Positions 6,647 through 37,839 of a DNA stretch of 57,076 nucleotides are shown piece after piece. The position numbers and the translations under genes are program-made. This DNA comes from Lachnospiraceae bacterium. Its GTDB lineage: Bacteria; Bacillota; Clostridia; Lachnospirales; Lachnospiraceae. The notes below the pieces were generated by a model. The model worked only from the letters and a program-made list of their open reading frames with translations. It ran no database searches and was not told where the DNA came from. The number at the start of each line of letters is the position of its first letter. Position 1 is the stretch's first letter. Location of the stretch: assembly GCA_017465475.1 (NCBI GenBank), contig JAFTWC010000023.1:1-57076 (forward strand), given 5' to 3'.

Positions 6647-8323
6647 TTATACTTCCACCGTCTTCGAATTCTCAATTTTAATCTCTCTGTCACAGTACTG
6701 CAAAATACTCTTTCTGTGGGTAATAATGATACAGGTCGGTTTCGGCGTCAGGGCCTGCAGCCCTTCCAAAACGGACAGTTCCGTCGCCTCATCCAAAGAA
6801 GATGTGGCCTCATCTAAAATCAACAGCGGTGCCTTACGTACAAAGGCTCTGGCAATGGCAATACGCTGTGCCTGGCCCTCGGAAATACCGTGTCCCCGTT
6901 CTCCGATGACGGTATCCAGTCCGTTTGGCAAACCCATCACAAACTCATAGCCTGCGGAAAGCTTTAACGCATCGTAAATCTCCTCTTCCGTGGCATTCAG
7001 ATTACCCATTAAAATATTATCTCGCACCGTACCGCTGAACAGGGTATTTCCCTGGGGTACATATGCGATAAAGTTTCGAGTACTGGCATTGGCACGAATA
7101 CTCTCACCGTATGTATTGTAAAAATTAACATCTCCCTGTACGTCGCTCATAAAGGACATAATCAAACGGATTAACGTGGTCTTTCCGATACCGGACTCAC
7201 CGATAATCGCTACGAACTCGCCCGGCTTTACATCCAAGGACACGTTCTCTAAAACCTTTTCCTCTGTATAACCAAAGGTCAGTTCCTTAATATCCACACC
7301 GATATGTTCGGTCTTCATGGTGATTTCTTCTTTTTCCTCTAACGGAATGTTCTGCAGTTCCATAACACGTCCCGCAGAAGCCAACACTGACACCACCTTC
7401 GGAATCTGCTGTGCCAAACCCATAATCGGAGATTGTACCTTGTTAATTAAGGACAAAAATACCGACATGGTGCCGTATGTAATGGTTTTAGCAGCAATCA
7501 ATGTGGCGCCATAAGCAAAGGCCACAATATAGCCCAGCTGGAACGCTACCGACATGGTGGTGGAACTGGCAAGACCTAGTTTCGCCCGTTTGAAAATCCA
7601 ACCAAACCGCTCGTCCCGAAGTTTCGTCAAACGCTTTGCGGAATACTCTTCATTAGCAAAGGCTTTCACCACCAAAAGATTGGCCAGACTCTCCTGCAAA
7701 AAGGAACGATATTCCGACTCCGACTCTTGTACCTTAACCTGTAGCTTTTTTAGCTTCTTTCCAAACCACCAGGAAACAATAGCCGCCACCGGTGCTACCA
7801 AAAGCGCAAAGCATGCCAGCAACGGAGAATAATAGAACAGTGTAAAGAACACCATCAGCAGTTCCACTGCCAAAATAATAATGTTTGGAATGGTCCCGAT
7901 AATACCGTTGGCAATATTTCCCGCATCACTGGTAAGACGGGTCATCAAATCCCCCGTATGATATCTCTTCACATCCATCCAATGAGAATTGATAATCTTC
8001 TCATATACCTGCTTCCGGATGCCAAAGGAAAACTTTTCATTTAATACCGTTGACATTAAGGAGGAAATCACACCTACCACTTGTAACCCCAGTACCAATA
8101 CCAGATAGCCGACGATTAACGTAACAAATTCCTTCCCTTCCGTGGCATTGTCGATAATCTTTTTCGTCAAATTCACCATAACAAGAGAAGAAACCGTACC
8201 TGACAACGAAAAAACCATCATCAAAATAATACGTCCCAGGTACGGCTTGGTATACTTCATCAACCATTTGGCATACTTATACTGGTTCTGTCTGTCATCC
8301 CATAACTTTTTTAACTTACCCAT
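6647..8323 (-). CDS. Lasso-peptide ABC exporter (D protein), fused TMD-NBD
   Basis: 558 residues: six transmembrane helices in residues ~20-300, then an ATPase domain from ~340. The ATPase shows Walker A GESGIGKTT, a Q-loop region AYVPQGNTLF, Walker B LLILDEATSSLD and an H-loop THRKS. The signature motif reads ISEGQAQR rather than LSGGQ, a mild deviation. There is no N-terminal C39 peptidase domain, which fits lasso systems, where the leader is removed by the separate B2 protease. It sits 20 bp after the B1 gene in the K-C-B1-D order. Expected role is export of, and self-protection from, the mature lasso peptide(s), possibly from both loci of this window. Confidence 0.85.
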   Translation of the reverse strand: MGKLKKLWDDRQNQYKYAKWLMKYTKPYLGRIILMMVFSLSGTVSSLVMVNLTKKIIDNATEGKEFVTLIVGYLVLVLGLQVVGVISSLMSTVLNEKFSFGIRKQVYEKIINSHWMDVKRYHTGDLMTRLTSDAGNIANGIIGTIPNIIILAVELLMVFFTLFYYSPLLACFALLVAPVAAIVSWWFGKKLKKLQVKVQESESEYRSFLQESLANLLVVKAFANEEYSAKRLTKLRDERFGWIFKRAKLGLASSTTMSVAFQLGYIVAFAYGATLIAAKTITYGTMSVFLSLINKVQSPIMGLAQQIPKVVSVLASAGRVMELQNIPLEEKEEITMKTEHIGVDIKELTFGYTEEKVLENVSLDVKPGEFVAIIGESGIGKTTLIRLIMSFMSDVQGDVNFYNTYGESIRANASTRNFIAYVPQGNTLFSGTVRDNILMGNLNATEEEIYDALKLSAGYEFVMGLPNGLDTVIGERGHGISEGQAQRIAIARAFVRKAPLLILDEATSSLDEATELSVLEGLQALTPKPTCIIITHRKSILQYCDREIKIENSKTVEV

Positions 8324-8343
8324 ATGTATGCCTTTATCCTTTA

Positions 8344-8610
8344 TTAATCAATAAACTTTAACTCCTGCATCTTAGAAAGGAACTCCATTACGGACCGCTC
8401 ACACTCTTCCGGAGTCACTTCATACTCCGACAACAATTGCTCAATAATACGGGCCGGTGTGGTCTCTTCCTGTAACATATCCCAAATATCATTGCCGACA
8501 CCCTTAATCAGGAAATACTTACCGGTTTCAAAATCCACCATAACCTTCTCTCCCGCAAGGTCGGTTACATTCAGTTTCTTCTTCATTACGATTGTAGCTG
8601 TCTTATCCAT
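8344..8610 (-). CDS. PqqD-like lasso B1 protein (RiPP recognition element)
   Basis: The 88-residue protein has the compact PqqD/RRE fold pattern: two short strands (VMVDFETGKYFLIKG), then GVGNDIWDML and a C-terminal helical part (ECERSVMEFLSKMQEL). In lasso systems B1 binds the leader and delivers the precursor to the B2 protease and cyclase. I chose ATG 8610 because GGAGGAG lies 7 nt upstream. The longer in-frame start has no ribosome site. It is the only B1 in the window, so it must serve both precursor leaders if the second locus is active. Confidence 0.85.
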   Translation of the reverse strand: MDKTATIVMKKKLNVTDLAGEKVMVDFETGKYFLIKGVGNDIWDMLQEETTPARIIEQLLSEYEVTPEECERSVMEFLSKMQELKFID

Positions 8611-8694
8611 GAACTTCTCCTCCATCGTATAATAATATAATTTTATCATAAAGATATTAAAAATACAATCTACAATGGCAAAACTTATAGAATA

Positions 8695-10642: not shown

Positions 10643-11527
10643 TCAAGTTTGGTTGAATATTCGAATCATGGCATCCCTGATTTCGTCAATGGTATCTGTT
10701 CCGTCCGGTCTGGTAATTTTATAAATACGGATCTTCCCGGCAAGCTCCAGGGTTCGCGCTTTTTCTTCCGGAGGATAATCAAAGCTTTTGTAAGCATCCA
10801 AAAGAAACAGATTCTGTAACATGCAGTTCCATTTCGCAAGTCCGGTCAATTCCTCTGTCAGAACGGTGTCCCCGTCATATTTATCCAACATAATCATGAT
10901 AGATAGTTGTCGCGGTTCATTACAAAAATCTTCGGTGTTGTAATAGGCAAATTTATCCTTTCGTTCATTGATATAGAATAAATCCTCATCATCCATCTGT
11001 TCTGCCACATTCCGACATACCTTCTGTAACGGGAACCCCGGATAAACCAGCATATCTGCCGACGGCTTCACCATTATAATATCATCTGCCAAATAACGGT
11101 AACCCGCCTCAATAAGAGATAATGCGGCAGTAGATTTGCCGGCTCCGCTGACGCCGGCAATCAGAGCAGCTCTGTGTCCATCAATCTCCATGGCGCTGCA
11201 GTGAATGGCAGAAAAACCACGCTGCAAAAACAAAAAGGAAATACTCCATCCCAAAACAAAAGAAGCCAGTTCTTTTTCATCAACATCCCCAAACGGACAA
11301 ACCAATATTTCATTCCCGTTTTGAATAATAAAATGTCCGCTATCGTTCCGAAACCATATGCGTGATACCGACATGGCACTGGCTACTCCCTGAGCCGTAA
11401 GCAGTCCTATATCCTCCGGCACTGAAGCATAACGCACTGTTACATCAGGGGCAGCCGAAGTCTCTTCCAAATGATACAATTTAATTTCAGAGTGAAGCCC
11501 TAATCCATAGATATAATATTGATACAT
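10643..11527 (-). CDS. HPr-kinase-like lasso tailoring kinase, locus 1
   Basis: The 294-residue protein has a P-loop GVSGAGKST at mid-length followed by the downstream pattern YRYLADDIIMV, as in the HPr kinase C-terminal domain. It lacks the full HPrK N-terminal domain and lies in a RiPP operon. Relatives in paeninodin-type clusters phosphorylate the C-terminal Ser of the lasso precursor. I use ATG 11527 (MYQYYIYG), with GGGGA upstream, because the paralogue at 34590-35468 starts the same way (MYFYKVYG). Precursor 1 ends in Lys, so its phospho-acceptor, if any, must be internal. It is the first gene of the leftward unit from the shared promoter region at 11572-11624. Confidence 0.8.
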   Translation of the reverse strand: MYQYYIYGLGLHSEIKLYHLEETSAAPDVTVRYASVPEDIGLLTAQGVASAMSVSRIWFRNDSGHFIIQNGNEILVCPFGDVDEKELASFVLGWSISFLFLQRGFSAIHCSAMEIDGHRAALIAGVSGAGKSTAALSLIEAGYRYLADDIIMVKPSADMLVYPGFPLQKVCRNVAEQMDDEDLFYINERKDKFAYYNTEDFCNEPRQLSIMIMLDKYDGDTVLTEELTGLAKWNCMLQNLFLLDAYKSFDYPPEEKARTLELAGKIRIYKITRPDGTDTIDEIRDAMIRIFNQT

Positions 11528-11571: not shown

Positions 11572-11600
11572 TTGACAACTTCATTTGATATTGATATTAT
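11572..11600 (+). promoter_or_regulatory. Consensus sigma-A promoter for lasso precursor 1
   Basis: TTGACA (11572-11577), exactly 17 bp, then TATTAT (11595-11600). Transcription would start near 11607, ~34 bp before the precursor ATG. The -10 overlaps the -10 of the leftward promoter. Confidence 0.8.
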
Positions 11601-11640: not shown

Positions 11641-11817
11641 ATGAAGACTTGGACTAACGCAGAAATCATTGAATTAAACATTGCAGCAACCGCACAGGGT
11701 GGAAAGAATCTTGATCAGGTAGATAACTACTGGACCGATAAGGAAACCGGCGATCTTTACGCTTCTTACGCAAGCGGCGGCGACAAGACCGGTGATGAAT
11801 TCCAGGTAATTAAGTAA
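11641..11817 (+). CDS. Lasso-peptide precursor 1 (A protein), 58 residues
   Basis: The ATG has GGAGGGG 5-8 nt upstream and encodes 58 residues. The leader MKTWTNAEIIELNIAATAQ matches paeninodin-type leaders: an aromatic residue early, a conserved E-I-x-E-L-x-I block, then a Thr near the cut site (Thr17). The cut is either before Gln19 (Thr at -2, as in known systems) or Gly20 (Gly as residue 1). Acceptors would then be Asp25 (ring of 7) or Asp28 (ring of 9). The 39-40 residues after the leader, ending GDEFQVIK, are long for a lasso core. It is convergent with B2, divergent from K, and followed by a terminator. Precursor 2 (37639-37839) has nearly the same leader. Confidence 0.8.
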   Translation: MKTWTNAEIIELNIAATAQGGKNLDQVDNYWTDKETGDLYASYASGGDKTGDEFQVIK

Positions 11818-11829
11818 TTACGGCATGTT

Positions 11830-11861
11830 AAAAGCTGTTGCGTTGTAGCAACAGCTTTTTT
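11830..11861 (+). terminator. Intrinsic terminator after precursor 1
   Basis: A perfect 12-bp stem AAAAGCTGTTGC/GCAACAGCTTTT, loop of 6, then a T run, starting 12 nt after the precursor stop. It separates the convergent precursor and B2 genes. On the minus strand the T tail is only four bases, so leftward read-through from B2 is possible. Confidence 0.85.
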
Positions 11862-11872: not shown

Positions 11873-12322
11873 TCAGATACAGTACTTATCCACAATTGCA
11901 TATCCTTCACCCGTTCCACCGGTTACAAACATTGCTCCGACTCTCAACCAGGCATGTGCAACCATTTTCCCGTCATCAAGCTTACATCCCAAATAAAGAG
12001 TACTCTGTATTCCCTTCTTTTTTAACAGCTTTTGCGCCGATAACGCACGTACAAGGCATTTGCTCTCCCAAGTTGTCCTCGTGCAAATCCTGTCTACAGC
12101 ATAGGATACCCGATAGGCGTAACGGTAGACTTCCTTTGTTTCTTCCGCCGGAGATTCTTCTCCCCGGATCCCCCAATGCTTCTGTAATCGCGCCGGTTTT
12201 AACAACCAAATGCACAACCGGTAATATGCCGAACAGCATAAGGCCTTACAACATAATGGCTTGTATTTACAATATTTCAGGAATCGATATCCCTTCGCAA
12301 ATATACTATCTTTCCACTTCAT
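11873..12322 (-). CDS. Lasso B2 leader peptidase, transglutaminase-like
   Basis: The 149-residue protein shows the pattern of the lasso B2 family (transglutaminase-core cysteine protease): Cys89 in WESKCLVRALSAQ, the helix after it, a strand LYLGCKL and His123 in VAHAWLRV. The third catalytic acid cannot be assigned with confidence because the residues after HAW are hydrophobic. B2 cleaves the leader from the precursor with B1's help. It lies 15 bp downstream of the nucleotidyltransferase gene and ends convergently with precursor 1. It is the only B2 in the window. Confidence 0.85.
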   Translation of the reverse strand: MKWKDSIFAKGYRFLKYCKYKPLCCKALCCSAYYRLCIWLLKPARLQKHWGIRGEESPAEETKEVYRYAYRVSYAVDRICTRTTWESKCLVRALSAQKLLKKKGIQSTLYLGCKLDDGKMVAHAWLRVGAMFVTGGTGEGYAIVDKYCI

Positions 12323-12337: not shown

Positions 12338-13504
12338 TTATTTTTTAAAGTGAAGCTCCATATTCTGATAAATGGTCTGATAGGTCTTTACCTTATCTGC
12401 TTCAATCTCGTGCACCATTTTACGCTTTTTCTCGCCTTTCTTCATGAAAATACCGCGCCATGCACGAATTCCCCATGCCACCGGAAGCAACCAGTGATGA
12501 GTTTCTAACCACGGATAATACTCCGCCATATAGGAAAGAGGCGGGAAATAGTACCATCGCTTCAGCTGACTCGGTGTGGCATCCTTATCCTTCATCTTCT
12601 CTTCCGAGAACTTATTCCAAATACCGTTTTCGTCTTTTCCGTAGATTCCGCTATCCATCATATATTGGAACAAATCATCGTAAAACGGACTGTTCTTTTC
12701 ACCCTTAAGCCAAATATCTGCCAACTTCTCCATGTGCTTTGTAAATTCCAAAATGCCACACTTCTTCAGTTCCTCTTTCACGTACTCAGCATTCATGGTC
12801 TTTCCGTACTTTTCTCGGTACACATACACATCCACCAGATTACGAATCCCGCATCCCATGGTATAAAAATGCTTCGCCATATGCGCCATCATGTAAACGT
12901 AAAAATCTTCCGGGCTAAAATCATAAGTATAATTCATTCCTTCCCGCAACACAGCTCTGGAGAAATTAGAAAAATACTTATACTGCTCCTCATCCACCGT
13001 CTTATCGTACATCGCTTTATGAGCCTCCACTACCACAAACGGTGCTTTTTTGTAGATATCATGATGCTTAACGGAACGTATCAAGCCATAGCCTTTTTCA
13101 GCCAATATTTCCGTCGCCTTTTTCATGCAATCCCCATCAATAAGCACATCAATATCGCTCATCTCGCGCATTTCCGGCGCCGGATAAATAAACTTCATCC
13201 GTGCCCCCTTCATCGGCTGGTTCTTAACACCGGCAGCCTCAAAGCAACTCTCCAATTCTTTTAATTCCGTTACTTGCGCCATAGTCCGCATAAGGCTTTG
13301 CATTACCTTCCCTCGCATAAGTCCCTTATGTTCCTCAGATAACTTATCCGTCTTTAACAGCGCCCCCAAAAGAAGATATTCCATGTGATTCCGATGTGCA
13401 ATGTCTATAATTTCTTCAATCACAATCCCTTGCGGTACCTCCGTAGGTTTTCTTCCTTCCAACTGAGCATGTACCAACTCCGCCAAATAAACAAATATAC
13501 TCAT
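12338..13504 (-). CDS. Nucleotidyltransferase-fold tailoring protein (NTP_transf_5-like)
   Basis: 388 residues. The region near residues 115-130 reads KGARMKFIYP, followed by MREMSDIDVLIDG, which supplies the DxD metal site of the nucleotidyltransferase fold. A helical C-terminal half contains HMAKHFYTMGCGIRNLVDV, typical of NTP_transf_5-type proteins that recur in lasso clusters with HPrK-like kinases. In pseudomycoidin-type systems (from memory) such an enzyme adds sugar to the phosphorylated peptide. Here the substrate is inferred only. Start ATG 13504 follows AAAGGGGAG; the frame is open further upstream but overlaps the preceding gene. Confidence 0.75.
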   Translation of the reverse strand: MSIFVYLAELVHAQLEGRKPTEVPQGIVIEEIIDIAHRNHMEYLLLGALLKTDKLSEEHKGLMRGKVMQSLMRTMAQVTELKELESCFEAAGVKNQPMKGARMKFIYPAPEMREMSDIDVLIDGDCMKKATEILAEKGYGLIRSVKHHDIYKKAPFVVVEAHKAMYDKTVDEEQYKYFSNFSRAVLREGMNYTYDFSPEDFYVYMMAHMAKHFYTMGCGIRNLVDVYVYREKYGKTMNAEYVKEELKKCGILEFTKHMEKLADIWLKGEKNSPFYDDLFQYMMDSGIYGKDENGIWNKFSEEKMKDKDATPSQLKRWYYFPPLSYMAEYYPWLETHHWLLPVAWGIRAWRGIFMKKGEKKRKMVHEIEADKVKTYQTIYQNMELHFKK

Positions 13505-13517: not shown

Positions 13518-13829
13518 TTATTCTTCTCCAAACCACTGCTCATATACTGCATATAATGCAATAGCAATCGCACCTGCTTTTAAAGAACAACACCATTTAA
13601 AATGATCAAGTTCCAACCATGTCCCCACATAAAAGTAACATACCGCTGCAACCAGCATCGCCACACCCAGTAGCACCGTATTCCAGCGCTTATACAACAC
13701 ATACTGTCTGTCCTCGTCATATTCCACTCGTTCAACCATAGCAAAAATAAACTTCTTGATCGGGATTTTTATTGCCATCATCAAAACAAAGGTCATACAG
13801 CCTACAAAAAACGCAATTGCAGCATTCAT
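13518..13829 (-). CDS. Small membrane protein, lasso/EPS boundary (a)
   Basis: 103 residues with three predicted membrane segments (about residues 4-22, 50-66, 82-96). A short amphipathic stretch, IKIPIKKFIFAMVERV, follows the first helix. The start overlaps the end of the preceding gene by ATGA, so the two are translationally coupled. It resembles that neighbour in layout (N-terminal helix, then I-K-x-P-I-K-[KR], a charged loop and further helices), suggesting an old duplication. I do not recognise a named family. Immunity, export or membrane-organising roles are possible but unsupported. Confidence 0.7.
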   Translation of the reverse strand: MNAAIAFFVGCMTFVLMMAIKIPIKKFIFAMVERVEYDEDRQYVLYKRWNTVLLGVAMLVAAVCYFYVGTWLELDHFKWCCSLKAGAIAIALYAVYEQWFGEE

Positions 13830-14203
13830 TCGTCCTCTCCCTCCTCACGAATATCAAAAGTGATCTGATCAAAAAATGCATACTCACATAAAGCAAACAC
13901 ACCACTCATCACTGCTGTCGGAAAGGAAAAATCAATCAATGGCGACAACTTTGCCACCAATGCAAACACACCTATGGAAAGAAGCATCGTCAAGTAAATC
14001 AGATGCATATTCTTCCTCCGAATCAGCTTCTTTCTTTTCCCCGCCAGCTTTGGCCGTTTAGCGATTTTCCGATCCACCGACTGTACGAGTTTTCTTTTAA
14101 TCGGTCCCTTTATTAAGCTCATCAACACCACAACAAATGTCGCCACAAGTAAGGCATGTAATTCATAAATATGGGACTTGGCATAGCTTAAAATCTTATG
14201 CAT
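13826..14203 (-). CDS. Small membrane protein, lasso/EPS boundary (b)
   Basis: 125 residues. The N-terminal membrane helix is followed by LIKGPIKRKLVQSVDRKIAKR, a strongly basic loop (GKRKKLIRRKN), two more hydrophobic segments and an acidic tail (IREEGEDE). I chose ATG 14203 with TGGAG upstream; an in-frame start 13 codons earlier would overlap the glycosyltransferase gene spacing without a better site. It is paired with the overlapping gene 13518-13829. No family recognised. Confidence 0.7.
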   Translation of the reverse strand: MHKILSYAKSHIYELHALLVATFVVVLMSLIKGPIKRKLVQSVDRKIAKRPKLAGKRKKLIRRKNMHLIYLTMLLSIGVFALVAKLSPLIDFSFPTAVMSGVFALCEYAFFDQITFDIREEGEDE

Positions 14204-14245
14204 AATTTTTTCTCCATTGTTGGGCCATTCGTATTCCATCACCTA

Positions 14246-15184
14246 CTATTGTCTCAGATATATCGCATACCAGTACTTTAACTTCTGCTTCAGCCCCCAG
14301 TGATTCCATGCGATTTTTTTCCACTCCTTACATTTTCTTTTAGCATCCGCCACACCAACATCACCTTTCTCATACTTTGCATACAATAGCACTTGTACCG
14401 CGGAAGTGACATAATTCTTTTGCAAAACCTTCTGAACTCCTGAAAATTGTTTCCCCTGAAGTTTATCACATAACTTCAAAAACACTTCTGCTCCACTAAA
14501 GTCCGCTTTTTCTGCTCTCTTATGGCACGCACTATCCGGTCTTATATACCAATGATATAATTTCATTGTGGTCAAACAAGCAGTCTCACATCCGGACATA
14601 ATCTCATAGGTATACATGCAGTCTTCGTTTACCCTCAAATTCTCATCAAACCTGATACTTTTGAATTTTTCTGCATTATACAGTTTATTCCACACAAGAC
14701 CATGCATTGAGTTCCCACCACAAATGTAATTTCTAATACATTCTTCATTTGAGTGAAACATAAAAATATGTTCTTCACTTTCCTTTATCCCGGTAACATA
14801 CTCATATGTCTTGTCTATCCCGCATGCCACAATATCACAGTTCTTATCCTTCGCAAGTGAATACATCTTCTCTATGTAATTCGGTTCAATCCAATCATCC
14901 GGGTCCACAAAACAAAACCACGCCCCCTGCATCAGAGAGAGTCCACAATTTCTCGCATGACTCACCCCATGGTTGTCCATATGATAAACACTGATTCTGT
15001 TATCCTTCGCACAAAAAGAATCGCATATCTTTCCGGAGTCATCTTTGGAGCCATCATCAATACAAATTACTTCGAAATTAGAGTATGTCTGCATTAAAAC
15101 ACTGTTAAGGCATCTATCGATATATGCCTGTACATTGTAAACAGGAATTATTATACTTATCTTGTCCTTCTCATCTACATTCAT
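14246..15184 (-). CDS. Family-2 glycosyltransferase
   Basis: 312 residues with the GT-A fold: ISIIIPVYNVQAYIDRCLNS, the donor-binding CIDDGSKDDSG, ARNCGLSLMQGAW and the metal-binding FVDPDDW near residues 92-98. The variant DPDD replaces the common DSDD. The C-terminal half has WNKLYN and basic helices typical of EPS/CPS transferases. It is 34 bp after the flippase gene and is the last clear EPS gene before the lasso locus. Donor and acceptor sugars cannot be read from sequence. Confidence 0.9.
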   Translation of the reverse strand: MNVDEKDKISIIIPVYNVQAYIDRCLNSVLMQTYSNFEVICIDDGSKDDSGKICDSFCAKDNRISVYHMDNHGVSHARNCGLSLMQGAWFCFVDPDDWIEPNYIEKMYSLAKDKNCDIVACGIDKTYEYVTGIKESEEHIFMFHSNEECIRNYICGGNSMHGLVWNKLYNAEKFKSIRFDENLRVNEDCMYTYEIMSGCETACLTTMKLYHWYIRPDSACHKRAEKADFSGAEVFLKLCDKLQGKQFSGVQKVLQKNYVTSAVQVLLYAKYEKGDVGVADAKRKCKEWKKIAWNHWGLKQKLKYWYAIYLRQ

Positions 15185-15217
15185 GCTTCACGTCCTTTCC
15201 ACTGTGACTCATTACTG

Positions 15218-16642
15218 TCAGTCTTTTTTTAACTTTGCTTTTATCTTTTGGCTGATTCCAAACTTCCGCTCAGCCCATAATAATCCAACAATTCCGATTA
15301 CTGCCTCCAGCATCCAGCGAACCGGCCATGCCGTCTCCAACAGGATGGTACAACCTCCTACCACCAAAACGCCCACAGAAACACCTAACAAAGCCGTCAT
15401 CCTGAATAAAGAAGAACCATGAATTCTCCATGCCAAAAAAGAGTGAAATATAAAGTACAGAAAATAGGTAACTAAAGTTGTATAAGCTGCCGCTATATAT
15501 CCGCATCGCGGAATGAAAATATAATTCAACACAATATTTAATCCCGCTGCCAACATGGTACCGGTCGCAATACATTTTGTTTTTCCATAGAAATACTCAA
15601 TCACTGACGGAAGCGTATATAAAAATGCAAAATACCCTCCTATCAATACCGGAATTACACATTCCGTAGAACCCCAATATTCTTTATCTCCTAAAATCTT
15701 AATCATTTCCGGCGTTACCATCATGATTAAGGATGTAATCAGTGCCATTCCGAACGCATAATTCGTTCCCTGTTTCCGTATACTTTCATAATCCTTACTA
15801 TCCATTTTCTCATAGACCCACGGTTTCCATACCTTTTCCAGGGCTGTAGTCATCACCTTGAATAAAGAGTAAATGGTGTACGCAAAACTATAAATTCCCG
15901 CCTCTGCCGAACCGACGATATCTTTAATCATTATCCTATCAAATGCAGACAGGACAACTTGCGAAATGCCATGAGGAACAATCGGAAGGCTATATTTTAA
16001 ACCATACTTCCAATATTCACCGGACACTGTCGGTTTTGCTTTTCGGAAAAAGAAAACCGTAATATATGCTCCCACCAAAACCATCGGTAAAACAGTACCC
16101 ACTATTCGTCCCAAAGAACGTTGACCGTTAAATAGTGTTAGCAACAAAACAATGGACAACACCATATTTGATATGGCATAAAATGAACTTATCTTTACGT
16201 ACGATTTATAACTGTAGTTAAGACTGATATAAGTATTATACACCTGTAAAAGTGAGCTGCCCAAACAATGTATAATCAATATATTCGCAGTTAACCTGTC
16301 GAAGCCCCACCATTCCCGATATAACGGAAAACATAAATTTGCCCCCAAAAACCATACACCGGTGCTAAAAAAAAGAAATAGAACAATGGACGATACATAC
16401 TCTTCCAACCTATGTTCATATTTATATTTTGCGTTATTGATACTGGAATGTAACGCAAGTCCAATTAAAATATAAAATATTGATTCAAACGAAAGATAGG
16501 TATTATAATCACCATATTCCGCCGTTGTAAGCAATCTGGTAAAAATCGGTGCCGAAAGAAATGTAATTCCTTTCAGCAAAATATTGCCGAGCACGTATCC
16601 GATCCCCGCTTTTACAACCTTATTCGATGAATTCTTCTCCAT
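15218..16642 (-). CDS. Wzx-type polysaccharide flippase (MOP superfamily)
   Basis: 474 residues with about 12-14 membrane helices. The N-terminus GIGYVLGNILLKGITFLSAPIF and the loop TRLLTTAEYGDY are the signature start of Wzx/RfbX flippases. These move undecaprenyl-linked repeat units to the outer face of the membrane. A basic tail (KIKAKLKKD) ends the protein. It lies between a kinase-fold gene and a glycosyltransferase in the EPS operon, with spacings of 21 and 33 bp, which supports co-transcription. Confidence 0.9.
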   Translation of the reverse strand: MEKNSSNKVVKAGIGYVLGNILLKGITFLSAPIFTRLLTTAEYGDYNTYLSFESIFYILIGLALHSSINNAKYKYEHRLEEYVSSIVLFLFFSTGVWFLGANLCFPLYREWWGFDRLTANILIIHCLGSSLLQVYNTYISLNYSYKSYVKISSFYAISNMVLSIVLLLTLFNGQRSLGRIVGTVLPMVLVGAYITVFFFRKAKPTVSGEYWKYGLKYSLPIVPHGISQVVLSAFDRIMIKDIVGSAEAGIYSFAYTIYSLFKVMTTALEKVWKPWVYEKMDSKDYESIRKQGTNYAFGMALITSLIMMVTPEMIKILGDKEYWGSTECVIPVLIGGYFAFLYTLPSVIEYFYGKTKCIATGTMLAAGLNIVLNYIFIPRCGYIAAAYTTLVTYFLYFIFHSFLAWRIHGSSLFRMTALLGVSVGVLVVGGCTILLETAWPVRWMLEAVIGIVGLLWAERKFGISQKIKAKLKKD

Positions 16643-16663
16643 AACATTCCTCTTTTAGCATTT

Positions 16664-17974: not shown

Positions 17975-17986
17975 TCTCAGTTCCTC

Positions 17987-19333: not shown

Positions 19334-19387
19334 TTTTTCACCTTTCTTGGCTCTCTTACTGCCTTGTAGTTCCTTCGTGATTTCCTT

Positions 19388-20170: not shown

Positions 20171-20181
20171 CTTCAACATCC

Positions 20182-21128: not shown

Positions 21129-21145
21129 CTTTTTATCCTTCTTTT

Positions 21146-21865: not shown

Positions 21866-21878
21866 GTGTTATTCCTCC

Positions 21879-23619: not shown

Positions 23620-23650
23620 TTAAGCCACCTCGTTTTCCGCCGATATATTT

Positions 23651-25602: not shown

Positions 25603-25624
25603 CTTTTGTCACCGCCTTTCGAAT

Positions 25625-27142: not shown

Positions 27143-27172
27143 AAGGCTCTCTCCTTCCCTTTCACATACAAC

Positions 27173-28093
27173 TTACCGCACTTCCCTCAAATACCTCTCC
27201 AGGGCATCCTTCCACTCCGGTAAAGGTTCAAATCCCGCCTTCACAAGCTTACTCTTGTCAAGCCTGCTGTTAAACGGTCGCTTTGCCTTGGAAAGTCCGT
27301 ACTCCTCGGTAGTCACCGGAGTGACCTTTGTATCGTATCCTGCCTGTTTAAATATCTCACAGGCAAAGTCATACCAACTGATAAAACCGCCTTCATTGGT
27401 GGCGTGATAACAGCCGTATTTCTCCGTTTCTATCATATCTGCCAGAAGTCTCGCCAAATCCGGCGTATAGGTCGGGGTACCCACCTGATCGGATACTACC
27501 CGCAGGGTATCGTATTTCTTTCCGATGGTTAACATAGTCTTAATAAAGTTATTACCGTTTAATCCGAATACCCAGGCAATCCGCACGATAAAGTACTTGG
27601 TAAGCAGTTCCTTTACCGCCAGCTCACCTTCAAGCTTCGTCTGTCCGTACACACTAAGAGGTGCATACTCGGTACAGTCCGGGTCCCAGGGTGTTTCTCC
27701 CTGTCCGTTAAACACATAGTCGGTGCTGATGTAAACCATCTTACAGTCAAGGGTTTTACATACAGTGGCAATGTTCCTTGTCCCGGTTACATTAACCGCT
27801 TTTACCTTTTCCGCATTTTCCTCATCTTCTGCCGCATCCACCGCGGTCCATGCCGCACAGTGCACTACCGCATCCGGTCGTACGCGCTGTAATAAATCCT
27901 TCACAGCCGTTGCATCCGTGATGTCTAACGCAGCAAATTTATAAGATGCCGTACCCTTTGCCTCGTCCGTCAAAAGGGCACTCTTTTCATTTTCTGCAAT
28001 ATCGCTTCCCACTACCCCGTAACCACGGCCCAGAAGCTCTTTTACCACATCATAGCCCAGTTGTCCGGAAACACCGGTTACAAATACGTTCAT
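27173..28093 (-). CDS. rfbD: dTDP-4-dehydrorhamnose reductase
   Basis: 306 residues of the extended SDR family: the nucleotide-binding GVSGQLG at residues 7-13, the YGQTKLEGE active-site Tyr-Lys, and the family segment HCAAWTAVDAAEDE. It performs the last, NAD(P)H-dependent step of dTDP-L-rhamnose synthesis. It closes the four-gene rfb set (C-A-B-D order) 33 bp after rfbB and precedes the beta-helix lipoprotein. Confidence 0.93.
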   Translation of the reverse strand: MNVFVTGVSGQLGYDVVKELLGRGYGVVGSDIAENEKSALLTDEAKGTASYKFAALDITDATAVKDLLQRVRPDAVVHCAAWTAVDAAEDEENAEKVKAVNVTGTRNIATVCKTLDCKMVYISTDYVFNGQGETPWDPDCTEYAPLSVYGQTKLEGELAVKELLTKYFIVRIAWVFGLNGNNFIKTMLTIGKKYDTLRVVSDQVGTPTYTPDLARLLADMIETEKYGCYHATNEGGFISWYDFACEIFKQAGYDTKVTPVTTEEYGLSKAKRPFNSRLDKSKLVKAGFEPLPEWKDALERYLREVR

Positions 28094-28126
28094 CCGGTCA
28101 CACTCCTTCGATTCTACTCAATCTGT

Positions 28127-29146
28127 TTATCTGTTTCCGTACATCTGCTCGTAATAGTTCTGATATTCACCGGAAATGATGGTTTCCCACCATTCTTTAT
28201 TGTCCAAATACCACTGAATGGTCTTTTTAATACCGTCTGCAAACTTCGTCTCCGGAAGCCAACCCAGTTCTCTGTGAATTTTTGCCGGGTCGATGGCATA
28301 TCGCATATCGTGACCCTTACGGTCGGTTACATACGTAATGAGGCTCTCCGGCTTTCCCAGTTCCTTACAAATGAGCTTTACGATATCAATATTACGCATC
28401 TCGTTGTGTCCGCCGATGTTGTATACCTCGCCTACTTTTCCTTTATGTATAATCAAATCAATTGCCTTACAATGGTCCTCCACATACAGCCAGTCACGGA
28501 CATTGATGCCCTCACCGTATACCGGAAGCGGCTTATCATTCAGCGCATTGGCAATCATAAGCGGAATCAGCTTTTCCGGGAAATGATACGGGCCGTAGTT
28601 GTTACTGCAACGGCTGATGGTCACCGGCAAACCGTAGGTTCTGTGATATGCCTGTACAAGCAAATCCGCAGATGCCTTGGAACTGCTGTACGGAGAACTG
28701 GTATGAATCGGAGTCTCCTCCGTAAAAAATAAATCCGGACGATCCAGCGGTAAATCTCCGTATACTTCGTCCGTAGACACCTGATGATATCTCTGAATGC
28801 CGTACTTTCTGCAGGCATCCATAAGCACCTGGGTTCCCATAATATTGGTCTCTAAAAACACACCCGGATTCTCAATGGAACGATCCACATGACTCTCCGC
28901 CGCAAAATTCACCACCACATCCGGTTTCTCTTCTTCAAACAACTGATATACTGCATCTCTGTCACAAATATCTGCTTTCACAAACCGGAAGTTCGGATTA
29001 CTCATCACCGGCTCTAAAGTAGACAAATTGCCTGCATAGGTCAACTTGTCCAAACAAATGATGCGATACTCCGGATACTTCTTTAACATATGAAATACAA
29101 AATTGGAACCGATAAATCCCGCTCCGCCTGTTACAATAATCGTCAT
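28127..29146 (-). CDS. rfbB: dTDP-glucose 4,6-dehydratase
   Basis: 339 residues of the extended SDR fold: VTGGAGFIGSN near the start, HVDRSI, and YSSSKASADLL with the catalytic Tyr-x-x-x-Lys. It converts dTDP-glucose to dTDP-4-keto-6-deoxyglucose. I use ATG 29146 with GGAGGAG 6 nt upstream; the frame extends 14 codons further into the gap but lacks a site. It lies 16 bp after rfbA. Confidence 0.95.
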   Translation of the reverse strand: MTIIVTGGAGFIGSNFVFHMLKKYPEYRIICLDKLTYAGNLSTLEPVMSNPNFRFVKADICDRDAVYQLFEEEKPDVVVNFAAESHVDRSIENPGVFLETNIMGTQVLMDACRKYGIQRYHQVSTDEVYGDLPLDRPDLFFTEETPIHTSSPYSSSKASADLLVQAYHRTYGLPVTISRCSNNYGPYHFPEKLIPLMIANALNDKPLPVYGEGINVRDWLYVEDHCKAIDLIIHKGKVGEVYNIGGHNEMRNIDIVKLICKELGKPESLITYVTDRKGHDMRYAIDPAKIHRELGWLPETKFADGIKKTIQWYLDNKEWWETIISGEYQNYYEQMYGNR

Positions 29147-29162
29147 GGATACTCCTCCTCGT

Positions 29163-30047
29163 TTAATACTGAATCTTTCCTTCCGCAACCTTTCTCAAGT
29201 GCTCACCATACGGGGACTTTCCGTACTCTGCTGCTGCCGTAAGAAGGGTTTCTTTAGAAATCCATCCGTTTATGTAGGCGATTTCTTCCGGTGCGGAAAT
29301 CTCAATACTCTGTCTCTTCTGAATCATCTGTACAAAATCGGAAGCCTCCAAAAGACTATCCATTGTACCGGTATCAAGCCATGCAAAACCACGTCCCAAC
29401 AGCTTTACGTTCAAGTCTCCGCATTCCAGATAAATCCGGTTCAAATCCGTAATCTCCAGCTCTCCTCTTGCGGAAGGCTTGATGGTCTTTGCATACTCTA
29501 CCACCCGCTTGTCATAGAAATACAAACCGGTAATACAATAATTGGACTTGGGCTGCTTCGGCTTTTCCTCTACGGAAATTACCTTTCCGTTCTCATCAAA
29601 CTCTACAATTCCGAAACGCTCCGGGTCATTTACATAATAACCGAAAATCGTTGCCCTGCCCTCTTCTCCGTTCTTTACTGCCTCCTGCAACAACTTACGG
29701 AAGCCGTTTCCGTAGAAAATGTTATCACCTAACACCATGGCACACGGCTCGTCTCCGATAAACTCCTCCCCAAGTAAAAATGCCTGGGCAAGTCCGTCCG
29801 GTGACGGCTGTACCTTATACGAAAGGGACACTCCGTACCTGCTTCCGTCCCCTAAAAGGCGCTCAAAATTCGGCAAATCCTGAGGGGTGGAAATAATCAA
29901 AATATCTTTGATTCCCGCCAGCATAAGCGTGGAAAGGGGATAATAAATCATCGGCTTATCGTATACCGGAAGCAACTGCTTTGATGTTACCATGGTAAGC
30001 GGATAAAGCCTTGTACCGGAACCGCCTGCTAAAATAATACCCTTCAT
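29163..30047 (-). CDS. rfbA: Glucose-1-phosphate thymidylyltransferase
   Basis: 294 residues. The sugar-nucleotidyltransferase start [17 protein letters not shown], the uridine/thymidine loop [11 protein letters not shown], the catalytic-site VLGDNIFYG and [11 protein letters not shown] are all intact. It makes dTDP-glucose, committing glucose-1-phosphate to rhamnose synthesis. It lies 13 bp after rfbC and is co-transcribed with it. Confidence 0.95.
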
Positions 30048-30901: not shown

Positions 30902-31591
30902 ATGGCAAGTTTATTACTGATTGATGACGACGTTGATGTATTGGAAATTAATCGCAAGTTCCTAACAAGCGAAGGTTTTACCGTACATATTGCGGACACC
31001 CCGCAAAAAGGCATTGCTCTTGCGAGAAAACTCTCCCCTTCCTGCATTGTCCTGGACGTTATGATGCCGGACATGGACGGGTTTGAAGTATGCGAGACCA
31101 TCCGGACCTTTTCCTCCGCACCGATAATCTTTCTCACCGGTAAAAGCTCGGAGGACGACAAAATCAACGGTCTTTTGACCGGCGGGGACGATTACCTTGT
31201 AAAGCCTTACGGACTTAGAGAGCTTTCTGCCCGTATCCGAGCCTTGTTACGTCGTGCATCTCTGCAACCGGTACCACCGGCAAATGCCAATGTTCTGACC
31301 TTCCGTGATTTATCCATCGATAAACTGGAGCACAAAGCATTTTACAAAGGGGAAGACCTTGGGCTGGCCAACCGCGAATATGAAGTGCTTTTATATCTCG
31401 CCACCCATCCGAATCAGGATGTCACTTTTGAAGAACTGGGCACCACCCTCTTTGGTGTCTATTCAGAACTAGACCGCCGTTCCGTTATGGTAAATGTAAG
31501 CCGTTTGCGCAAAAAAATGACCATTGATTTCGCTTTGGAAAACATGATTGAGACCGTATGGTCCAAAGGGTATCGATTTATTGCAAAATAA
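30902..31591 (+). CDS. OmpR-family response regulator
   Basis: 229 residues. Receiver domain 1-120 with acidic pocket DDD (8-10), phospho-acceptor Asp52 in VLDVMMPDMDG and the conserved Lys in VKPYG. The winged-helix Trans_reg_C domain fills residues ~130-229 (LANREYEVLLYLATHPN, GYRFIA). An AGGAGG site precedes the ATG. It pairs with the histidine kinase 49 bp downstream. Divergent from the EPS operon, it is a plausible regulator of that operon. Confidence 0.95.
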   Translation: MASLLLIDDDVDVLEINRKFLTSEGFTVHIADTPQKGIALARKLSPSCIVLDVMMPDMDGFEVCETIRTFSSAPIIFLTGKSSEDDKINGLLTGGDDYLVKPYGLRELSARIRALLRRASLQPVPPANANVLTFRDLSIDKLEHKAFYKGEDLGLANREYEVLLYLATHPNQDVTFEELGTTLFGVYSELDRRSVMVNVSRLRKKMTIDFALENMIETVWSKGYRFIAK

Positions 31592-31640
31592 TTCATAATC
31601 ACTTACTTTATCAACTCAGATTTGCACCCAGGGGGATTTT

Positions 31641-32465
31641 ATGAAAAAAAATTCGTTTACCTCGCCTACCATTGAAAGTCAAACCATCGAAGAATTGTCA
31701 AAACAGTTATTAGAAACCACCGGTCAACTTTATGCCGCTAACGAACAATTAAAAAAAGAACAGGCACAAAAAAGAGAGATGTTAGCTAACATCTCTCATG
31801 ATTTGCGTGCTCCGATTACCGCTATCCGCAGCAGCATCGACTACCTAACCAGCGGACAGAATTTATCCAAAGAAGAACTGGATTCTTCCCTGCAACTCAT
31901 TCACCGCCGTACCCTTACACTGGAGAATCTGATACAGGACATGTATTTCCTGTTTTGTGTAGAAGACAATTCCAGAGCCTTCGAGTTCGAAGAAGTGGAT
32001 GCCGCACCTTTTTTGGAAACCTATTTCTATGACGCAATTTGTGATACCAAATTCGATGATAAAAACATGTCCCTAGACATGCCTGCAGACTTAGACTGCC
32101 GACTCTCCATCGATATCCAAAAGATAATCCGGGTTCTGGACAATCTATTTAATAACGCTGTGAAGTATTCACCGGCAAACGCAGATATTACGTTAAAGGT
32201 GGAGCTTGGCACAGATTCCCGGTGCCTTTCCGTCTCCGTCATCGATACCGGCTACGGCATCCCGGCAGATGCGGTGGAACATGTCTTTGGTCGTACCTAC
32301 ACCGTTTCCTCCGCCCGGACTCCCAACTCCGCTACCGGAAGCGGCCTGGGACTTGCCATTGTAAAAGCCATTGTAGAACGGCACGGCGGAAATGTAAAGT
32401 GCACAAGTACGGAAGGGAAGGGAAGCTGTTTTTCTTTCACATTGCCATGCATAAACATAAAGTAA
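31641..32465 (+). CDS. Cytosolic sensor histidine kinase
   Basis: 274 residues with no membrane segment or PAS domain. A short N-terminal coiled region leads to the H-box ANISHDLRAPI (His53), then the ATPase N-box DNLFNNAVKYS, the G1 box DTGYGI and the G2 box GSGLGLAI. It should phosphorylate the adjacent response regulator. Lacking a sensor domain, it must receive its signal from another protein or a cytosolic cue through the coiled segment. A strong hairpin terminator follows. Confidence 0.92.
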   Translation: MKKNSFTSPTIESQTIEELSKQLLETTGQLYAANEQLKKEQAQKREMLANISHDLRAPITAIRSSIDYLTSGQNLSKEELDSSLQLIHRRTLTLENLIQDMYFLFCVEDNSRAFEFEEVDAAPFLETYFYDAICDTKFDDKNMSLDMPADLDCRLSIDIQKIIRVLDNLFNNAVKYSPANADITLKVELGTDSRCLSVSVIDTGYGIPADAVEHVFGRTYTVSSARTPNSATGSGLGLAIVKAIVERHGGNVKCTSTEGKGSCFSFTLPCINIK

Positions 32466-34589: not shown

Positions 34590-35468
34590 TTATACTTCCT
34601 CTATCCACTCAAATGCGGCCTTCACCACTTCTTCTGCCGTATTCCCCTCCTTGGGTCTGCCAATGCAAAGAATCGGCACCTTTGACGCCATCTCCAAGCC
34701 GATTTTTCCGATATACGGTGCATATTTCTGCTCTCTTGTCATGAGCTTACGTAAAAACAGATTTCCCACAAAGACATGCAACCGGTCCAAGCCGTTTACT
34801 TCCTGCACCGTCACCTTCTGTTCCGAAGTAAGATGCAACAAAAGAAACCCCTTTATCGGTCTTCCTTCTGTGGAAAATTCTCCCCGGTAACGGGCCAGAA
34901 ACTTATCTTTCTGCTCATCGATATAGATCAACTCCTCCGGATCATATCCTTCCCGCTCTACCACATCCCTGCACAGCTTCTGGTACGGAAAAGCCGGATA
35001 CACCTTGCTTCCGTCTGCCCATGCCATATCATCTGCCATCAGTGTATAGCCCGCCTTTAAAAAGGCTGTGGTTGCTGTAGATTTCCCGGTTCCGCTTTCT
35101 CCCGCAATCATAACAGCGCCCTGCTCGTCCGCCACCACACTGCAATGAATCGGAAGCATATCCCGTTGTAGTGCCAACATGGACATGCCATATCCCAAAA
35201 TGTACGTCTGCAACCACTCCGGATTCCCTTTTCCGGTGAGAGCATAGCCAATCCGTTTCCCCTCATATACCTGAATTTGGCAAGTTGTATTGCGGAGCCA
35301 GCTGTATTCATGTCCGAATTCACAAAAAGCAGACTGTTCTTCTATTTCTTTTGAAAACACCGTCTTCTCAACCGTCACATCCCAATGCGTGGTGTCATCC
35401 CATACCACCAATTGCGGGAACTCCAAATCCGAGGCAACAATCACTCCGTACACTTTATAAAAATACAT
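34590..35468 (-). CDS. HPr-kinase-like lasso tailoring kinase, locus 2
   Basis: 292 residues. P-loop GESGTGKST followed by the helix and YTLMADDMAW, as in the locus-1 kinase. Shared segments (SMLALQRDMLPIHCS here, SFLFLQRGFSAIHCS there; PAFPYQKLCRDV versus PGFPLQKVCRNV) show the two are paralogues. The predicted role is phosphorylation of precursor 2, whose last residue is Ser, fitting a PadeK-type reaction. It is the last gene of locus 2, 64 bp after the cyclase. Read-through is limited by the riboswitch-terminator region further left. Confidence 0.8.
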   Translation of the reverse strand: MYFYKVYGVIVASDLEFPQLVVWDDTTHWDVTVEKTVFSKEIEEQSAFCEFGHEYSWLRNTTCQIQVYEGKRIGYALTGKGNPEWLQTYILGYGMSMLALQRDMLPIHCSVVADEQGAVMIAGESGTGKSTATTAFLKAGYTLMADDMAWADGSKVYPAFPYQKLCRDVVEREGYDPEELIYIDEQKDKFLARYRGEFSTEGRPIKGFLLLHLTSEQKVTVQEVNGLDRLHVFVGNLFLRKLMTREQKYAPYIGKIGLEMASKVPILCIGRPKEGNTAEEVVKAAFEWIEEV

Positions 35469-37437: not shown

Positions 37438-37472
37438 AGTACCATCCTTTTCTTTTTTTTAAATAGAACAAA

Positions 37473-37600
37473 GAGTTTCGCTTGCGAAACTCTTGCGCCG
37501 AGCGCGGTCGCATGCGACATCTTCCAATCGCGCGAGTGCGCATCCATAGCGGAGCTTTTTTGCTCTATAGGAAATGCTCAATTTCCTATAGAGCAAAAAA
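37473..37600. repeat. Cluster of inverted repeats between precursor 2 and its cyclase
   Basis: Three palindromes in a row: GAGTTTCGC-TT-GCGAAACTC (37473-37492), a GTCGCATGCGAC palindrome near 37508-37519, and a perfect 20-bp stem with a 5-nt loop at 37556-37600 (arms start TTTTTTGCTCTATAGG and end in AAAAAA). The sequence between is unusually GC-rich (GCGCGAG, GCGC). It may be a dispersed genomic repeat and should act as an RNA-structure barrier or stabiliser. Confidence 0.7.
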
Positions 37601-37623
37601 GACCCTTGCCTGTGACAAGGGCC
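37595..37623 (-). terminator. Intrinsic terminator after precursor 2
   Basis: On the minus strand GGCCCTTG ... CAAGGGTC followed by TTTTTT, 16 nt after the precursor stop, sharing its T tail with the large palindrome. Confidence 0.75.
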
Positions 37624-37638
37624 TCCTATAACGCTCTA

Positions 37639-37839
37639 TTAGGACAAAGTATCCGGAGTGCTGTCATTGTCATTACCAGTCTTACCCGGCTTACCGTCTC
37701 CGTCACTATCTTTACCATCAGCTAAGTCATTGTTCCAACCAACACCATTACTACTGAACTCTACGTAAGAATCCCACTGACCATGAGCGGTCTCTGCAAT
37801 GTTAAGCTCTACGATTTCTGCTGCATTCCAAGTCTTCAT
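37639..37839 (-). CDS. Lasso-peptide precursor 2 (A protein), 66 residues
   Basis: I place the start at ATG 37839 (MKTWNAAEIV), 8 nt after GGAGG; an ATG two codons upstream is too near that site. The leader MKTWNAAEIVELNIAETAH differs from precursor 1 at only five of 19 positions, so one B1/B2 pair could process both. With the cut before His19 (Thr17 at -2) the acceptor would be Glu27 (ring of 9). Before Gly20 it is Glu27 as residue 8. The 47-residue remainder is very acidic and Asp/Gly/Asn-rich (ADGKDSDGDGK) and ends in Ser, a possible phosphorylation site. It has its own strong promoter. Confidence 0.8.
   Translation of the reverse strand: MKTWNAAEIVELNIAETAHGQWDSYVEFSSNGVGWNNDLADGKDSDGDGKPGKTGNDNDSTPDTLS

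Follow-up and report, generated by a model that had tools for sequence, protein, structure and literature searches.

How can a second lasso peptide precursor be matured when its locus carries a cyclase and a kinase of its own, but no leader-binding protein (B1), leader peptidase (B2) or exporter (D)? The question is raised by the window, a stretch of 57,076 nucleotides from a Lachnospiraceae bacterium. Here the original prediction placed a split twin system, with a single B1, B2 and D at locus 1 acting in trans on the precursor of locus 2. All ten genes named for the two loci are present and intact, with coordinates that agree exactly or to within a few codons. Judged by their sequences, both loci can be assigned to the paeninodin/pseudomycoidin lasso type.

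Gene content of the two loci

With the exception of its precursor, locus 1 lies on the reverse strand. D (6647..8323) encodes an MsbA-like ABC exporter (PF00664 and PF00005); its top NCBIfam match is MsbA, below the cut-off, and it is 86% identical to its counterparts in the relatives G001/G004, 84% in G008 and 66% in G105. B1 (8344..8610) is a stand-alone RiPP recognition element (RRE) of the PqqD family. It scores 66 bits against PF05402 (cut-off 23.4) and 78 bits against NF033536, just below the cut-off of 80, and aligns with 57 bits to the solved paeninodin-type RRE 9x90. B2 (11873..12322), a transglutaminase-like leader peptidase, matches NF033537 with 75.6 bits, above the cut-off of 33, and PF13471 with 72 bits. 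The nucleotidyltransferase N (12338..13504; PF14907, 150 bits), which we take to be PsmN-like, after the enzyme from the pseudomycoidin cluster, is 86% identical to its counterpart in G001/G004 and adjoins B2 in G001/G004, G105 and G009. We refer to D, B1, B2 and N as the hub. Two small proteins encoded next to it on the same strand (13518..14242) appear membrane-like by eye and are conserved near the hub (homologues in L026, L027, L065 and L066), and a Pfam search gave no match for them.

Each locus also carries a module composed of a kinase, a cyclase and a precursor. In locus 1 these are the type-1 cyclase C1 (8695..10629), the type-1 kinase K1 (10643..11527) and A1 (58 aa; 11641..11817), which is on the forward strand, opposite to the other genes. 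In locus 2 all three are on the reverse strand: the type-2 kinase K2 (34590..35468), the type-2 cyclase C2 (35533..37437) and A2 (66 aa, with a C-terminal Ser; 37639..37839). Lasso cyclases are asparagine synthetase-like enzymes without the glutaminase cysteine. The lasso cyclase model NF033535 is the top NCBIfam match of both C1 (194.8 bits) and C2 (166.3 bits), in each case far below the cut-off of 525. In the cyclase tree C1 belongs to the type-1 clade and C2 to the type-2 clade, the latter with support of 100/100. The two cyclases are 22% identical, in line with their earlier description as well diverged, and K1 and K2 are 33% identical. Both kinases are HprK-like tailoring enzymes with HprK-related profile matches, all below cut-offs, and H109, K131, D148 and D149 are invariant in 12/12 aligned kinases. 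The precursors were recognized from their sequences, the leader of A2 matching that of A1; a profile search of A1 and A2 returned no family match.

A third kinase-cyclase-precursor module is present in the same genome, on a different contig from the window and in a neighbourhood without B1, B2 or exporter. Its cyclase C3 also has NF033535 as top NCBIfam match, below the cut-off, and all three cyclases carry an SGGLDSS/SSGLDSS motif (SGGLDSS in C1 and C2) and a Met-Ser N-terminus. The system is therefore not a twin, as initially proposed, but at least triple.

The space between the loci had been described as a 23-kb exopolysaccharide cluster. Its content is confirmed, since mainly exopolysaccharide genes occupy 14246..30047 on the reverse strand, with polysaccharide-type Pfam matches in 10 of the 16 ORFs scanned (one, Wzy_C, below cut-off), but the distance from the nucleotidyltransferase to K2 measures 21 kb. 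Closer to locus 2, Pfam identifies a response regulator and a histidine kinase on the forward strand (30902..31591 and 31641..32465) that recur beside lasso loci: homologues of the pair are found at those of G001, G004, G008, G105 and G211, and a single partner at those of G009 and G293. A promoter-like site of A1 (TTGACA-17-TATTAT, 11/12; 11572..11600, forward strand) is a consensus match, in a scan that found four such sites against 1.2 expected. The same holds for a site upstream of A2 (TTGACC-17-TATGAT; 37889..37917, reverse strand), where two were found against 1.6 expected. A terminator-like hairpin with a 12-pair stem and a following T run lies 3' of A1 (11830..11859, forward strand), one of two terminator-like sites found there against 0.5 expected.

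Precursor leaders and cores

The first 20 residues of A1 and A2 are identical at 15 positions, whereas 20,000 shuffles of the A2 leader gave 3.2 matches on average and never more than 10. The common frame, previously written MKTW-NAEI-ELNIA-TA-G, is indeed shared, but its strict form is MKTW--AEI-ELNIA-TA-G. In an alignment of 11 precursors, taken from four genomes of the genus, W4, E11, L12 and T17 are invariant and W4-x-x-[A/P]-x-[I/V] is kept in all. A1 and A2 have Ala at the position of the RRE motif where Pro is usual, and conservation of E11 and L12 is incomplete in the precursors found later outside the genus. With respect to the lasso leader criterion, [Y/W]xxPx[L/V/I/F/A] and Thr at -2, T17 stands at -2 or -3 depending on where the core starts. 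Precursors were searched with a hand-made motif (W, Y or F required) and a ribosome-site filter. This finder failed to pick up a precursor of G008 and those of type 3 in the genus, which were taken from other outputs. In a recount, two precursors lie by one cyclase in G075 and two by the type-2 cyclase in G105, and all were included.

Counted from the Gly after T-x-x, the candidate ring acceptor is Asp at position 9 in 7/8 type-1 precursors and Glu at position 8 in 8/10 type-2 precursors (lasso criterion, Asp/Glu at 7-9), positions that move by one if the core begins one residue earlier; the four type-3 precursors have no T-x-x-G. The type-1 core of A1 is kept in G001, G004, G105 and G075. Ser is the last residue of seven of the ten type-2 precursors, including A2, of one of the eight type-1 precursors, which is not A1, and of none of the four type-3 precursors. 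Counted from Gly 20, the cores comprise 39 (A1) and 47 (A2) residues, compared with the 13-33 quoted in the available text of PMC13352647.

Copy number of B1 and B2 in this genome and its relatives

The genome itself (88.8% complete, 81 contigs) contains one lasso-type B1 and one B2 above cut-off, versus three kinases and three cyclases of lasso type. The search for a second copy, proposed as a check of the original prediction, found no further lasso-type B1 or over-cut-off B2 in this assembly; the single-copy statement is genome-wide for B1 and B2, and D is the hub gene at locus 1. Several weaker matches were considered and set aside. A second PqqD-family match (C9, 24 bits) covers the N-terminal region in a protein of 456 aa, radical SAM-like by eye, that adjoins a small Cys-rich peptide and was thus not taken as a lasso B1. 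A second PF13471 match (C11, 21.5 bits, below cut-off) is a protein of 302 aa whose start, by eye, resembles a signal sequence, and was rejected as B2. The cyclase-like match C32 has Met-Cys-Gly near its start and was therefore taken as an ordinary asparagine synthetase; a further cyclase-like match, C27, scores 24 bits.

In the genus, lasso kinases occur in five of ten genomes and B2 in the identical five; G001 and G004 have three kinases each, three and four cyclases, respectively, and one B1 and one B2 each. In the family, a sample of 397 genomes from a larger group contains 13 kinase-positive genomes and 12 with B2, 11 having both. B2 is thus present in 11/13 kinase-positive vs 1/384 kinase-negative genomes, counting B2 over the cut-off only (35 further genomes have weaker matches). 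The arrangement, at first thought unusual, is not rare in the family: a cyclase match was obtained in 16 genomes, three of them (G202, G269 and G378) having weak matches only, and six of the 16 carry at least two cyclases. None of these six multi-cyclase genomes has more than one PqqD match of at least 55 bits. Counts of three cyclases per family genome mean at least three, as at most three candidates were scored in each.

One hub and many modules are combined in G001, G004, G388, G211 and G105. In G388 (99% complete), a precursor-kinase-cyclase cassette stands alone on a 379-kb contig, and the only over-cut-off B2 and the only strong PqqD match are on a different contig. In G211 (98% complete), which carries two cassettes, B1, B2 and D are spread over three contigs. 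G008 contains two B2 copies and G009 PqqD matches of 71, 51.5 and 24.7 bits; weaker PqqD matches occur elsewhere, for instance in G388 (37 bits) and G105 (41 bits), and the sole one of G293 (C192, 46.9 bits) has a short peptide of another kind beside it and was left out of the lasso B1 count.

Read literally, one of the observations named as contrary to the original prediction, locus 2 in genomes lacking locus 1, is made in part: type-2 modules occur without a type-1 module in G008, G009, G293 and G366. The B1/B2 hub is found in 6/8 genomes carrying a type-2 cyclase. In the other two, G293 (two cassettes; 200 contigs, 93% complete) and G366 (one cassette; 300 contigs, 91% complete), neither B2 nor a convincing lasso B1 was found; both assemblies are fragmented, but these could be truly hub-less genomes. 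In G002 (72% complete), a cyclase and a precursor were found, but neither B2 nor a lasso kinase. These genomes would suit satellite modules that are independent of the hub, a general protease trimming their precursors or the cyclase acting on an otherwise processed product; moreover, a work cited in a review states in its title that pseudomycoidin is formed in vivo in the absence of leader and leader peptidase. However, satellite precursors retain the leader for RRE binding with its register unchanged, and B2 accompanies the kinases throughout the genus and in nearly all kinase-positive family genomes, so we consider hub independence unlikely.

Cassettes, proposed mechanism and known systems

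The cyclase tree contains three clades that extend across genera, and the kinases mostly agree. These trees comprise 20 modules. Left out are the unfetched modules of G054, G056, G135, G179 and G344, the G001 type 2, G009, extra G004, G008-C87 and G002 cyclases, the additional kinases found in G075 and G105, and type 3 of G008, which is truncated; the type-2 assignment of G001 and G009 follows their best BLAST match. The hub encloses modules of two types in G105, of type 1 in the window, of type 2 in G008 and none in G001/G004. The satellite modules might also be decaying remnants of old complete clusters, giving no product. Indeed, the type-3 cyclase of G008 is truncated, neither comparison with A3 nor the motif finder revealed a precursor in the surrounding 16-kb stretch, and K2 is separated from C2-A2 in G001. 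On the other hand, the module genes of G000, G001 and G004 are open with catalytic motifs retained. The module enzymes are under purifying selection, with dN/dS of 0.05-0.18 between G004 and G001 (simple Nei-Gojobori dN/dS and dS; two genome pairs, three background genes; four G000/G004 values saturated), and we regard decay as highly improbable. Just as improbable is a second dedicated B1/B2/D set in the unassembled ~11% of the genome, which could be missing since the assembly is 88.8% complete, but whose absence would also be needed in G001 (82%), G004 (86%), G388 (99%) and G211 (98%).

It is thus likely that one B1/B2/D/N set serves at least three precursor-kinase-cyclase cassettes in trans. 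Against this speak the modules of G293, G366 and G002, the two B2 copies of G008, the Ala of A1 and A2 in the RRE motif and the incomplete conservation of E11 and L12 outside the genus. The predicted action of one B1, B2 and exporter on separate precursors is supported at the level of gene content, B1/B2 copies and recurring one-hub genomes. From these observations, together with co-occurrence, synteny and selection on the enzymes, we infer leader binding in trans, cleavage, cyclization, phosphorylation and export. B1 would bind the W-x-x-[A/P]-x-[I/V] leader common to A1, A2 and A3 and hand each precursor to B2. The kinase of each cassette would phosphorylate its own precursor, its cyclase would close and thread its own core, and D would export the product. 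Since only the leader must fit the hub, cassettes could leave, enter or be exchanged without B1/B2. A wider reading is more tentative and, taken as a whole, falls somewhat short of an even chance: throughout the family, cassettes would be exchanged, some of them at fixed chromosomal positions, around one B1/B2/exporter/nucleotidyltransferase hub located close to capsule genes and to a two-component regulator that is itself conserved. The conserved type-1 product would then serve at the cell surface or in signalling, and not as an antibiotic in an arms race. Its ring would have ten residues if the cut follows Thr -2; otherwise the Thr of the leader would stand at -3.

If hub sharing is true, a lasso pathway does not have to form a cluster, and a cassette of precursor, kinase and cyclase alone can make use of the processing hub that a genome already has. 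Mining by rules like that in the available text of PMC13289728, where either PF13471 plus Asn_synthase or a match to one of two named models of cyclase type is asked for, can overlook such cassettes or label them incomplete, so lasso diversity in the family may be undercounted. Natural cyclase sets sharing one B1/B2 would be useful for engineering, and with this system one could study directly how several cores are served by a single RRE.

Precursors that share processing enzymes are already known; a literature search covering few subscription papers found no account in which scattered modules, each with its own cyclase, share a single B1/B2. The cebulassopins reportedly come, by the title of a 2026 JACS paper, 'from a split biosynthetic operon' and, compared by title alone, also have a lasso pathway in separate pieces. 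Paeninodin/pseudomycoidin clusters, as far as described in the available text of PMC9266682 and PMC13381572, comprise A, B1, B2, C, D and an HprK-like kinase, with or without the PsmN nucleotidyltransferase. They resemble our system in the kinds of hub and module enzymes, a leader close to the W-x-x-P type, the His-Lys-Asp-Asp residues of the kinase and a frequent location near capsule loci. Here, in contrast, modules without B1/B2/D stand apart from the hub, and a C-terminal Ser, the reported kinase site, is absent from most precursors of types 1 and 3. In caulosegnin and other multi-precursor lasso clusters (available text of PMC13352647 and PMC13381572), several precursors likewise depend on one machinery; in the caulosegnin type, one enzyme set, including the cyclase, serves all precursors of the cluster, whereas by gene content A1, A2 and A3 each have a nearby cyclase of their own, and each precursor its own kinase, these sets often lying at a distance. 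In lanthipeptides with unclustered proteases, a peptidase from elsewhere in the genome completes maturation (PMC8960859, available text), but this is another RiPP class, without lasso cyclases or an RRE hub. Finally, linear polyphosphorylated peptides (LPPs) share the RRE, HprK-like kinase, NTP transferase, MsbA-like exporter and capsule locus. In the available text of PMC13381572 they have no cyclase, a signal-peptidase-type protease and a Tyr-type leader, whereas here cyclases are present in all three modules and the leaders carry Trp.

Gene content of the lasso modules and their hub

All genes that the original prediction had assigned to the two loci were recovered. Locus 1 carries, on the minus strand, the exporter D (6647-8323), the PqqD-family leader binder B1 (8344-8610), the lasso cyclase C1 (8695-10629), the HprK-like kinase K1 (10643-11527), the leader peptidase B2 (11873-12322) and the nucleotidyltransferase N (12338-13504). 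The precursor A1 (11641-11817, plus strand) lies between K1 and B2 and has its own promoter-like site and its own terminator-like hairpin. Locus 2 consists of K2 (34590-35468), C2 (35533-37437) and A2 (37639-37839), all on the minus strand. B2 scores above its family cut-off and B1 above that of Pfam, though 2 bits short of that of NF033536, a B1-type model. The top match of C1 and C2 is the lasso cyclase model, yet both lie far under its cut-off. The kinases retain the His-Lys-Asp-Asp set described in lasso kinases (PMC9266682). An SGGLDSS-type motif and a Met-Ser start are kept in all three lasso cyclases of the window's genome, C1, C2 and C3; since they start with Met-Ser, they lack the cysteine found at the N-terminus of true asparagine synthetases.

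A genome-wide search supported the predicted single B1 and B2: the window's B1 is the only lasso-type protein of two PqqD matches, and the window's B2 the only one of two PF13471 (B2-type) matches above cut-off. The predicted twin system, however, has to be extended, since the cyclase search of this genome revealed a third module on contig C76 (stretch L010). It comprises K3 (7280-8179), C3 (8221-10194) and A3 (10274-10525), an 83-aa precursor starting with MRKWVSPAIEELQLKYTAS. No match to B1, B2 or D was found beside it in the 18-kb stretch. With precursor-kinase-cyclase sets at locus 1, locus 2 and C76 and one B1/B2 set, three modules therefore face one hub (B1, B2, D and N). The C76 module (L010:7280-10525) is followed by a gene resembling, by eye, a MATE transporter, and its counterpart in the genus genome G008 has a truncated cyclase. 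The second PqqD match was rejected as a lasso B1, being part of a radical-SAM-like protein. This protein, on contig C9 (L012:5819-7601), has the PqqD-like part at its N-terminus and adjoins a small Cys-rich peptide, a unit which we take to be SCIFF/ranthipeptide-like.

Precursor leaders and cores

The common leader frame proposed for both precursors is well borne out: A1 and A2 leaders are identical at 15 of 20 positions, and the best of 20,000 shuffles reached 10. M1, W4, E11, L12 and T17 are invariant in 11 precursors from four genus genomes (types 1, 2 and 3, the counterparts of the three modules, plus two from an extra G008 module); outside the genus, E11 and L12 are lost in some later-found precursors. 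In the register described for a paeninodin-type precursor, leader Trp -15, Pro -12 and Leu -10 occupy the RRE pocket (PMC13381572). Trp 4, residue 7 and Ile 9 match this spacing, except that Ala replaces Pro in A1 and A2. Furthermore, the window's B1 aligns over 81 residues (57 bits) with 9x90, the RRE structure from that study.

Counting from the Gly of T-x-x-G places Asp at 9 in 7/8 precursors beside type-1-clade cyclases, the exception being the second precursor of G075 (another family genome), and Glu at 8 in 8/10 beside type-2 or type-2-like cyclases, the exceptions being the extra G004 and second G105 precursors. The cut usually follows Thr at -2, and Ile at -2 is also reported (PMC10368454). 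If Thr is at -2, the core would begin at the position before that Gly, and the type-1 ring would then count ten residues, outside the 7-9 quoted for lasso peptides; a ten-residue analogue has been made in vitro (PMC8498205). If Gly is residue 1, Thr would stand at -3, a position without report in the literature consulted. A C-terminal Ser, the reported kinase site when last, is present in 7/10 type-2, 1/8 type-1 and 0/4 type-3 precursors. A fourth precursor type, with a core motif like DGG[Y/R].GDG..SGH, was seen by eye in four genomes (L072:6646-6837, L059:7777-7980, L060:6422-6625 and L071:2917-3132).

Distribution of hub and modules

Strong lasso-kinase matches occur in five of the ten genus genomes, three each in G000 (the window's genome), G001, G004 and G008 and one in G009. 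B2 is found in exactly these five (two copies in G008, one in each other), and the remaining five have neither, only a weak match taken as an ordinary HprK. Each of the positive five has one PqqD match of at least 66 bits; further matches occur in G009 (51.5 and 24.7 bits) and in G006, without B2 (37 bits). In G002 (72% complete), a cyclase and a precursor lie on a 3-kb contig and neither lasso kinase nor B2 was found.

G001 and G004 have counterparts of all three modules, and G004 also has a fourth cyclase with its own precursor. In both, the hub has the order N-B2-x-B1-D with no module within, type 1 is on a different contig, the type-2 kinase is on the hub contig about 25 kb away, and type 3 is on a further contig, adjoining cheW- and prfB-like genes (by eye) as in G000. 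In G001, K2 no longer adjoins the cyclase and precursor of type 2. The type-2 module of G008 is flanked by D and B1. On G009 contig C35, L074:531-7564 resembles the linear polyphosphorylated peptide cluster type: a 166-aa protein, signal-peptidase-like by eye and without NCBIfam match, is surrounded by a PqqD-like protein, an ABC transporter and a nucleotidyltransferase homologue.

Across 397 family genomes, kinases were found in 13, over-cut-off B2 in 12 and both in 11; G293 and G366 have a kinase without B2, and G354 the reverse. Cyclase matches occur in 16 genomes, with at least two in G000, G105, G211 and G388 (one B2 each), G008 (two) and G293 (none), and each of these six has at most one PqqD match of at least 55 bits. 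In G388 (99% complete), one cassette of the order A-K-C stands alone on a 379-kb contig, and a second contig carries B1, B2 and another module; in G211 (98% complete), B1, B2 and D are spread over three contigs, with two modules. A single stretch of G105 (99% complete) reads N-B2-A1-K1-C1-B1-D-K2-A2-C2, which repeats the gene order of locus 1 in the window and adds a type-2 module. This compact arrangement may be an old one, from which modules would later have moved out. G105 also carries a lasso-type kinase homologue inside a 690-aa open frame (L065:5421-7493), with an adjoining precursor-like ORF (7556-7792).

It is quite probable that a shared hub acts in trans on several cassettes. What the sequences show directly is which genes are present, how many copies of B1 and B2 there are, their co-occurrence with the modules and the selection on the enzymes. 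Leader binding and leader cleavage would be performed by the hub in trans, and cyclization, phosphorylation and export steps would belong to the same route. G293, G366, G002, genome incompleteness and the second B2 of G008 are weak points of this reading. Several precursors sharing machinery in lasso clusters (PMC13352647, PMC13381572) and unclustered proteases in lanthipeptides (PMC8960859) are already known, and the title of a 2026 JACS paper contains 'split biosynthetic operon'. Kinase-bearing lasso clusters, and several precursors per genome, are reported from rumen Lachnospiraceae (PMC7533575), where no hub sharing was found described. Our literature search did not turn up any description of scattered modules, each with a cyclase of its own, that share one B1/B2 hub.

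Module evolution and an adjoining regulator pair

In trees of 20 modules, the type-2 cyclases, type 3 with G293 and type 1 with G105 each form a clade at 100/100, and each clade spans genera. Kinases, some with long branches, mostly track cyclase types; the exception is one G293 module, with a type-3 kinase and a type-2 cyclase. Identity between G000 and G004 amounts to 86-90% for hub proteins and 53-76% for module enzymes; five neighbouring background genes span 80-97%, a range that includes the hub values. Since dN/dS (G004 vs G001) is 0.05-0.18 for module enzymes, these are maintained by selection; it is 0.36-0.52 for precursors and 0.02-0.07 for the hub. In the same pair, hub genes have a synonymous divergence of 0.30-0.40 and three background genes one of 0.46-0.78, whereas K1, C1 and C2 reach 0.97-1.24, a hint that some cassettes were exchanged. 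Such a rise is not seen in K2 (0.29), C3 (0.22) and K3 (0.55).

Between A1 and its G105 counterpart (L065:16197-16373), identity is 81%, above that of K1 (58%) and C1 (52%), which is unexpected for an arms-race peptide. This order is not universal, since the G001 counterparts show the reverse (A1 67%, K1 71%, C1 73%). A2 shares 32-50% identity with its counterparts.

A response regulator and a histidine kinase adjoin locus 2 (30902-32465). In several genera, this pair recurs next to B1 or to lasso modules, with homologues 45-86% identical at the lasso loci of G001, G004, G008, G105 and G211 and one partner each in G009 and G293; no homologue showed up in the stretches analysed from G075, G388 and G366. 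Weaker pairs (25-36%) also appear, and two-component regulators of this kind are common. The pair is a candidate regulator of the lasso system. The same regulator-rmlA site is present in G008, where a different precursor-cyclase pair occupies it.
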